From contig NZ_CP053707.1 of assembly GCF_013201035.1 (NCBI RefSeq), positions 2,108,001 to 2,172,000 on the forward strand: a DNA stretch of 64,000 bases. Reading direction: 5' to 3'. The number at the start of each line of letters is the position of its first letter. Position 1 is the first letter of the stretch. Of this stretch, positions 1,752 through 3,016 are shown piece after piece. Under the pieces are notes generated by a model. That model saw only the letters and a list, made by a program, of their open reading frames with translations, ran no database searches and was not told the DNA's origin. The position numbers and the translations under genes are program-made. The stretch comes from Arthrobacter sp. NEB 688. GTDB lineage: Bacteria > Actinomycetota > Actinomycetes > Actinomycetales > Dermatophilaceae.

Positions 1752-1759
1752 CGACAGAA

Positions 1760-1786
1760 GGGCCGGGCACCCCCGGCGCCCGGCCC
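1760..1786. terminator. GC hairpin between convergent smc and mini-peptide gene
   Basis: GGGCCGGGC (1760-1768) pairs perfectly with GCCCGGCCC (1778-1786) across a 9-base loop. There is no T-tract, as is common in high-GC actinobacteria. It sits 8 bp after the smc stop and 30 bp beyond the stop of the opposing short gene, so it could end transcription from both sides. Confidence 0.7.
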
Positions 1787-1816
1787 CTCCGTGCCGGGGT
1801 CACCCCCGGCGGTACG

Positions 1817-1945
1817 TCACTTCTGCGCCACGCAGCAGCCCAGGCACGGTCCGCACTTGATGTACGCGTTGGCCGGCAGCGTGGTGGACAGGAGCGTTCC
1901 CCCCGCGATGAGCGAGACGGCGACGATACGAGCAACCTTCTTCAT
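1817..1945 (-). CDS. Secreted Cys-rich mini-peptide (42 aa precursor)
   Basis: A 42-codon gene. The precursor has a textbook signal peptide: MKK start, hydrophobic core at about residues 7-23 and a PANA site at 24-27. Cleavage would release a 15-residue peptide, YIKCGPCLGCCVAQK, with four cysteines (31, 34, 37, 38), the first two in a CGPC motif as in thioredoxins. The start is supported by a good ribosome site (GAGAGGAA about 6 bases before ATG) and a -10-like TAGCGT about 29 bases upstream of it. The first codons (GTT, GCT, CGT) are less GC-rich than neighbours. I do not recognise the family. It lies 39 bp after the epimerase stop on the same strand, but appears to have its own promoter. 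Function unknown; a redox, metal-binding or signalling peptide are possibilities. Confidence 0.75.
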   Translation of the reverse strand: MKKVARIVAVSLIAGGTLLSTTLPANAYIKCGPCLGCCVAQK

Positions 1946-1964
1946 GGTGTTCCTCTCGGTCGAA

Positions 1965-1988
1965 GTGACCGGGACGCTACTCGGTCAC
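1965..1988. promoter_or_regulatory. Promoter and palindrome upstream of the mini-peptide gene
   Basis: On the minus strand the hexamer TAGCGT (1979-1974) is a plausible -10 for the peptide gene, giving a 5' leader of roughly 20-25 bases that contains the ribosome site. The hexamer is enclosed by an inverted repeat GTGACCG-N10-CGGTCAC (1965-1971 and 1982-1988), which also covers the stop of the upstream epimerase gene. A repressor bound there would block the promoter; that is inference. Confidence 0.45.
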
Positions 1989-3016
1989 CGGGATCCGCGC
2001 GCGCTGGACGGATCCCGCCGGCTCGCCCAGGCCTCGAGCAGGGCGCGCTCGTCGGCGTCGTCGAGGCCCGTGCGCCGGGGCTGGTCGGCCGGGCGGGTCT
2101 CCTCCCACGCGAGGGTGTCGCGCAGCGTCTCGACGAGCGGGCGGTGCGTGAGCCCGAGCGCCCGGGCGGCCTCGCCGGTGCGCGCGGCGAACCCGCCGTA
2201 CTCCGCGACGGGGAGCCAGAGCGGGAGCGAGCGCGGGCCCATCCACGGGCCGACCCCCTGCTCGGCGAGCCAGGCCGGGTCGGCCGGGACGGCCTGCGCG
2301 TCGCTGCCGGCCGCCTCGCGGGACGCGGCGAGCAGCCGGCCGATGGTCGTCGTCGGCCCGACGGCGTCGACCACCCCGGTCGTGCCGGTCTCGGCGCAGC
2401 GCACCATCCACGCCGCGAGGTCGCGGGCGTCGAGGACCTGGGTCGGGTCACCGAGGGCGTCGGGGGCGAGGACGCGGCCCGGGGCCGCGGGGTGGGCGAA
2501 CCGCCAGGGCCACCAGCCGGTGCGGCCCGAGGTGTCGCCCGGCCCGCCGATGAGGCCGGCGCGGGCGACGAGCGTGCGCCCGGCCCCGAGGCCCTCGAGC
2601 ACGGCCTGCTCGCAGGCGACCTTGGCGCCGCCGTAGGCGTCGGGGTCCTCGCCACCGACGTCGCGCGGGGCGAGCAGCGGGGTGGACTCGTCCGCGCCGG
2701 GGACCGAGTGGTCGGCGTAGACGTTGCCGGTCGACACGAGCCCCCAGTGGCCGGCCCGGCCGGCGAGCGCGGCCACGGCGCGGCGCACCTGGCCGGGGTC
2801 GCGCGCGACGTCGACGACGGCGTCCCAGTCGTCGCTCTCGACCCCGCCGAGCCCGGCGGACGGGTCGTCGCGGTCGGCGCGGACGAGCGTGACGCCGGGC
2901 GCCACCGCGCCCGAGCGGCCGCGGGCCACGCACGTGACGTCGTGGCCGCGCTCGAGGCCGGCGTGGGCCAGCGCGCGGCCGAGGAAGGCGGTGCCGCCGA
3001 GGACGAGGAGTCGCAT
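1985..3016 (-). CDS. NAD-dependent epimerase/dehydratase family protein
   Basis: A 343-residue extended short-chain dehydrogenase/reductase. It begins MRLLVLGGTAFLGRAL, the Rossmann nucleotide-binding glycine motif, followed by a family-typical STGNVY stretch (Ser of the catalytic region) and a YGGAK segment that supplies the Tyr-x-x-x-Lys-like pair (YGGAK at about residue 140). Such proteins act on nucleotide sugars or related substrates in the cytoplasm; the substrate cannot be told from sequence. The ATG at 3016 is chosen because the Rossmann motif starts immediately. TCGGCT six bases before the ATG resembles the leaderless -10 pattern seen elsewhere here, though weakly. Upstream on the same strand is a signal peptidase gene 62 bp away. 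Confidence 0.85.
   Translation of the reverse strand: MRLLVLGGTAFLGRALAHAGLERGHDVTCVARGRSGAVAPGVTLVRADRDDPSAGLGGVESDDWDAVVDVARDPGQVRRAVAALAGRAGHWGLVSTGNVYADHSVPGADESTPLLAPRDVGGEDPDAYGGAKVACEQAVLEGLGAGRTLVARAGLIGGPGDTSGRTGWWPWRFAHPAAPGRVLAPDALGDPTQVLDARDLAAWMVRCAETGTTGVVDAVGPTTTIGRLLAASREAAGSDAQAVPADPAWLAEQGVGPWMGPRSLPLWLPVAEYGGFAARTGEAARALGLTHRPLVETLRDTLAWEETRPADQPRRTGLDDADERALLEAWASRRDPSSARGSR

Follow-up and report, generated by a model that had tools for sequence, protein, structure and literature searches.

Next to the 3' end of smc in Arthrobacter sp. NEB 688 lies an open reading frame of 42 codons that ends in a cluster of four cysteines, raising the question of whether so small a frame is a gene at all and, if it is, what its product would do. 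We analysed it within a stretch of 64,000 nucleotides (hereafter the window). The frame had been put forward, on the letters of the DNA alone, as the precursor of a secreted peptide, and both its coordinates and its translation proved correct; the strand, left unstated in that original prediction, is minus (Table 1). Read from 1945 to 1817 and starting with ATG, it encodes MKKVARIVAVSLIAGGTLLSTTLPANAYIKCGPCLGCCVAQK, that is, MKKVARIVAVSLIAGGTLLSTTLPANA followed by YIKCGPCLGCCVAQK with a predicted cut between them; the plus-strand reading of the same bases in the same frame gives an unrelated string. By its sequence the first part looks like a Sec-type signal with an A-x-A site, in support of the signal peptide originally proposed, and a secreted peptide of 15 residues is what one would naturally read from it. 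In other actinobacteria, segments of a similar kind stand at the start of longer ORFs (e.g., ...GSTVPANAFAQ and ...ATALPANAETG). The predicted mature product, of 15-16 residues across the family, holds four Cys, has a computed net charge of about +1.7 and, in the three members described below, a GRAVY of 0.62 to 0.81. Signal-peptide calls combined sequence features with a crude script (hydropathy threshold 1.8, which the window's ORF passes), and a similarly crude scan, for short ORFs that have a signal peptide and four or more Cys beyond the cleavage site, returned this ORF alone from the window and none from 30 simulated first-order Markov windows, with a filter designed after the ORF was already known.

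Table 1. Features of the peptide locus, with positions given in the window
Feature	Positions	Strand	Remarks
42-codon ORF, four-Cys peptide precursor	1817..1945	-	ATG 1945-1943, TGA 1819-1817; G157 (93%) and G154 (62%) have orthologues at this locus
Predicted Sec signal peptide, residues 1-27, end PANA	1865..1945	-	From sequence; MKKVARI and PANA invariant in 3/3 members; similar segments in other actinobacteria
Predicted mature peptide YIKCGPCLGCCVAQK, residues 28-42	1820..1864	-	Four Cys, CGPC and two Lys invariant in 3/3 members
Ribosome site GAGAGGA	1951..1957	-	5 nt before ATG; GAAAGGA at the corresponding place in G154
-10-like hexamer TAGCGT	1974..1979	-	28 nt before ATG; inside the block GAGTAGCGTCCCGG[T/G]CACTTC, kept in 3/3 members
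Strong hairpin, within the 65 nt that separate the peptide gene from the convergent smc	1754..1792	-	Folding z -5.1; no T-run

On comparative grounds the ORF is real, a point settled by two orthologues. When the 42 residues were searched against 186 genomes of the family, two convincing relatives were found, both from the same genus: one in Phycicoccus jejuensis NRRL B-24460 (G157; 93% identity, E 2.5e-22) and one in a further genome, G154 (62% identity, E 1.2e-12). All three genes sit at the 3' end of smc and are directed towards it, and the relatives keep the predicted CxxCxxCC pattern with neither stops nor frameshifts, the opposite of what would have refuted the original prediction. Invariant in all members are MKKVARI, PANA, K-CGPC, the CC pair, the last Lys and all four Cys, giving the mature pattern K-C-G-P-C-x-x-C-C-x-A-x-K; the G154 member reads CGPCYACC, and an aromatic residue opens the mature part in each. 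Cys, Gly, Pro and Lys are fixed, and the hydrophobic positions drift. The two Lys flanking the Cys cluster, the ribosome site and the TAGCGT block are likewise kept in both orthologues, and the G154 gene has gained one whole codon (FVIK versus YIK) with its frame kept.

The measures of selection are less uniform. Nei-Gojobori dN/dS over the whole ORF is 0.35 for the window and G157, 0.44 for the window and G154, and 0.31 for G157 and G154, and the corresponding values of the 15 mature codons are 0.35, 1.05 and 0.51, so that either the mature part may be little constrained outside its Cys/Gly/Pro/Lys frame or the numbers are too small to tell. Between the window and G154, amino-acid identity in the real frame (26/43) narrowly exceeds that in the best other frame (24/42), which is interrupted by a stop codon in one member. 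Only six bases separate the ORF of the window from that of P. jejuensis, and the 97.6% DNA identity of their 5' halves is unexceptional, since 251 sliding windows attain 97% within the same 3 kb.

The flanks of the gene bear out most of what had been said of them. The ribosome site, described as strong, is in place, and the -10-like hexamer is present and kept in all three members, although a simple scan found no full sigma-70 promoter upstream of the ORF. The block around the hexamer is retained while the flanks in G154 diverge, and the 14-mer promoter core has one exact copy per carrier genome, at the peptide gene, with seven one-mismatch sites. A reading of this region as an ECF-sigma promoter (GGATC...CGTCC) was dropped, the spacing being 15 versus 17 (by eye) and GGATC failing to align. 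An inverted repeat, GTGACCG-N10-CGGTCAC, is broken in G157 and is therefore no conserved operator, and no other conserved operator was found at the gene. The downstream hairpin that had been noticed is real and strong: its GC-rich stem is 18 bp long, and the whole 78-nt stretch folds at -59.3 kcal/mol, a value equalled by 0/200 shuffles. It is plausibly a shared terminator of the peptide gene and smc, and because it lacks a T-run it is only that, unproven; the terminator scan's list does not contain it. An Rfam match over the hairpin, scoring 18.8 bits against a gathering score of 80, was taken as chance.

Around the gene, profile searches identified the C-terminal part of smc, an NAD-dependent epimerase, signal peptidase I and an unmatched 67-aa ORF. 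The epimerase and signal peptidase I genes share the strand of the peptide gene, which is convergent with smc. Among these neighbours no maturase or transporter was found, in agreement with the original prediction, nor any immunity, receptor, processing or metal-related gene. The proximity of signal peptidase I is no sign of a link, since tblastn places it beside smc in 12/12 genomes of the genus, carriers or not. The epimerase gene (1985-3016, minus strand) lies beside smc in 10/12 and is missing there in G154 and G159 (tblastn), so this spot varies in gene content. In G161 (L074) the first 420 bases after smc are a different sequence with a small membrane protein-like frame, by eye, and the epimerase and signal peptidase genes follow further on. 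Inverted repeats were also seen by eye in the epimerase-signal peptidase gap of P. jejuensis (CCACGAGAC / GTCTCGTGG and CATTTCGGGGTGACCCCGAAATG, L003 about 2760-2860) and not at the corresponding place of the window.

As to how the gene came to be so placed, a tree of 390 bp of smc groups the carrier G154 with the non-carrier G159 (support 98/98) and leaves most other forks unresolved; it requires three changes for three carriers, no fewer than with shuffled labels. The single location and the scattered presence together suggest either repeated loss of one old gene or exchange by recombination next to smc.

The original prediction proposed a search for relatives across actinobacterial genomes, and here the outcome was much narrower: the gene is carried by 3/12 genomes of the genus (HMM) and was seen nowhere else. 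In the family, an HMM search at E<=0.01 gave 7/186 genomes, namely the same three carriers and four weak rows, and after the frames of those four rows had been read no credible relative was left among the other 174 family genomes; for the weaker matches of the single-sequence search, frames were read at 15 loci. HMM searches of the order sample (E<=0.05; 22/396 genomes, namely that of the window and 21 others with 22 rows) and of the class sample (E<=0.01; 6/394, namely that of the window and five others with six rows) left the window genome alone once all non-carrier rows had been read. Such rows were signal peptides of longer ORFs or chance stretches: that of G082 has an in-frame stop and no CxxC, that of G091 covers the signal part only, within a 1086-aa frame, and those of G033 and G053 lie within longer frames without CGPCxxCC.

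Searches by pattern led to the same result. In the order sample the CGPCxxCC DNA pattern matched in 94/396 genomes, hits that are to be expected by chance, as the reversed control pattern is also common. Of the 111 loci listed, none of the 110 besides the window's has the motif in a short ORF preceded by a segment resembling a signal peptide; 79 were scored, their best uncharged 10-residue mean hydropathy being 1.2 against the threshold of 1.8, and the other 31, made up of 30 loci and the hit in G159, were assessed by eye. With one genome taken per species (84,980 species), a search by two short peptide patterns returned one locus, that of P. jejuensis NRRL B-24460, and its silence elsewhere is moderate evidence, given that G154 was not returned and the window's own record may be absent. 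Plasmids yielded three records at E 2 or worse, none a credible relative, phages no match, and viral contigs 74 pattern stretches of which none is a relative. When the 1,200 nt that follow smc in 41 genomes were screened by script for short ORFs with CxxC, the peptide gene was recovered in the three carriers; the ORFs found in L096 and L098 are unrelated and have no signal peptide.

The suggestion that the family may be undescribed has held up. Searches of Pfam gave 0 families at E<=10 for all three members, and there was no match in NCBIfam (window member), PHROGs (window and G154 members) or PDB sequences (window member); no paper on the peptide stands among the literature matches listed, whose coverage mostly leaves out subscription journals. 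Judged by these comparisons, the gene is apparently undescribed, a genuine genus-restricted orphan heading a narrow family of small Cys-rich peptides with predicted export, known from three members of which two are nearly identical. The host is a Phycicoccus-type soil bacterium, with a peptide apparently made for export and for trimming to 15 residues.

We then considered the enzymes that might act on such a product. MNIO (MbnB-like, PF05114) was found in 0/5 genomes of the genus, including all three carriers, and in 2/14 control genomes. A YcaO match is present in the window genome (G000, about 1.35 Mb from the peptide gene) and in G157 and absent from G154, and with only 2/3 carriers having it YcaO is not required for the peptide; neither maturase family is thus common to all three. 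The window genome's YcaO match lies in an 884-aa protein (G000:C1; L147 25-2679, family match 756654-757715) that combines a TOMM leader-binding part with a YcaO part of SagD type and by this make-up is a thiazole/oxazole RiPP maturase. The VKOR family (PF07884) is missing from all three carrier genomes and positive in 3/14 controls, including Corynebacterium glutamicum, weakly implying that exported Cys are less readily oxidised in the carriers.

Taken together, these features most likely describe a Sec-exported cationic peptide of 15-16 residues that would act outside the cell through its thiols. The precursor would be exported by Sec and cut after PANA, probably by signal peptidase I, releasing a cationic, moderately hydrophobic peptide; its gene would stand alone, presumably transcribed from its own promoter block to the likely terminator and in need of none of the tested maturases. 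Once outside the membrane, the clustered thiols may bind a soft metal. We favour thiolate binding of Cu(I) or Zn at or near the cell surface, tentatively and with a probability of roughly 0.38, because its C-G-x-C-x-x-C spacing matches the unmodified core of OB3b methanobactin, the Gly and Pro between the Cys are fixed, and Cys, Gly, Pro and Lys persist where the hydrophobic positions drift. Against it stand neighbours that are not metal-related, the lack of a conserved operator, the mature-codon dN/dS of 1.05 for the window and G154, a family of three members with two nearly identical, and a likeness to methanobactin confined to a seven-residue spacing, in a compound whose copper groups are enzyme-made and need MNIO. 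That the thiols of the 15-residue CGPCxxCC peptide would hold Cu(I) or Zn by themselves, with an ordinary Sec signal and no maturase, is a stronger claim and one we consider rather unlikely.

The computed data do not separate metal binding from a secreted 15-mer with two disulfides that would kill as a small antimicrobial or carry a signal between cells, and our preference for metal is slight. This second role is almost as likely, though short of probable: the charge, the hydropathy and the aromatic N-terminal residue would suit it, each of the three pairs shows weaker constraint on the mature part than on the signal part, and presence in 3/12 genomes is patchy in the way common for genes of antagonism or signalling, but no immunity, receptor or processing gene was found among the neighbours tested and all three carriers lack a VKOR-type oxidase. 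That same lack would fit a peptide exchanging thiols and disulfides with exported proteins through its invariant CGPC, the motif having been likened to the thioredoxin active site; the likeness goes no further, as a product of 15 residues cannot form the fold and has no thioredoxin domain. Thioredoxin active-site chemistry is set by the fold, and we regard such a redox role as very improbable. Somewhat less improbable, yet still unlikely, is a signal left uncut, which would make of the 42 residues, with their one hydrophobic segment, a small membrane protein with its Cys-rich tail outwards; every member keeps PANA as an A-x-A site immediately ahead of the Cys part, and comparable PANA ends are found in longer ORFs just where the mature part follows. 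A reading as a RiPP precursor, modified through thioether, azole or other Cys chemistry by an enzyme from another locus, could draw on the Cys-rich core and on the YcaO maturase of two carriers, but with YcaO missing from G154 and distant in the window genome, MNIO absent and two members lacking Ser/Thr in their mature part, its chances appear slim. Least credible of all is a cysteine-sensing leader or a chance ORF, for which one may cite the Cys-rich small upstream ORFs reported in mycobacteria (PMC4633059) and the narrow lead of the real frame over its best rival; a signal peptide, a frame-keeping one-codon insertion between orthologues and a conserved promoter block all argue otherwise, and with the next gene downstream, smc, running in the opposite direction there is nothing to attenuate, so that gene order refutes the leader.

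The locus offers a clean example of a stand-alone gene for a micro-peptide of predicted secretion that lies outside the family libraries searched and is conserved at a single place in the chromosome. The peptide, whose 15 residues include four invariant Cys, should be easy to synthesise, and metal binding, killing and signalling are separable by ordinary assays.

Among known systems, Sec-dependent small disulfide bacteriocins also have a signal peptide and a short cationic product containing Cys; they are usually longer and come with an immunity gene. Compared by that description, the present peptide differs in having no immunity gene among the neighbours tested. Lanthipeptides need Ser or Thr in the core, of which the mature parts of the window and G157 members have none and that of G154 one each; azole and thioamide RiPPs modified by YcaO have their YcaO with the precursor, whereas here YcaO is encoded in 2/3 carriers, about 1.35 Mb from the peptide gene in the window genome, and is absent from G154. 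Of the radical-SAM sactisynthases that mark sactipeptides, none was found among the neighbours tested. The mycobacterial Cys-rich upstream ORFs are small, unannotated and end in a Cys cluster (PMC4633059), resembling the peptide gene in size and in that cluster, but they precede co-directional genes, unlike a gene whose next neighbour is convergent. Methanobactin is close in spacing: the core of the precursor MbnA of Methylosinus trichosporium OB3b, LCGSCYPCSCM (PMC3621798), shares C-G-x-C-x-x-C with the CGPC peptide, as in CGPCYACC of G154, and has 11 residues against 15-16. Its leader, however, is short where the peptide has a 27-residue signal-like segment ending in PANA in every member, and the precursor is matured by MbnB/MbnC whereas the carriers have no MNIO. 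Close in plan are the bufferins, Sec-exported, Cys-containing, copper-binding RiPPs modified by MNIO, an established design (PMC12452194) in which a Sec signal peptide precedes a Cys part acting outside the cytoplasm, as predicted for our peptide; their clusters include an MNIO and partner genes, both absent among the neighbours tested here, and MNIO is absent from the genome. If unaided metal binding by the peptide proved true, these enzyme-made copper peptides would have in it a genetically simple counterpart, an ordinary Sec signal peptide then doing what methanobactins and bufferins do with enzyme-made groups.
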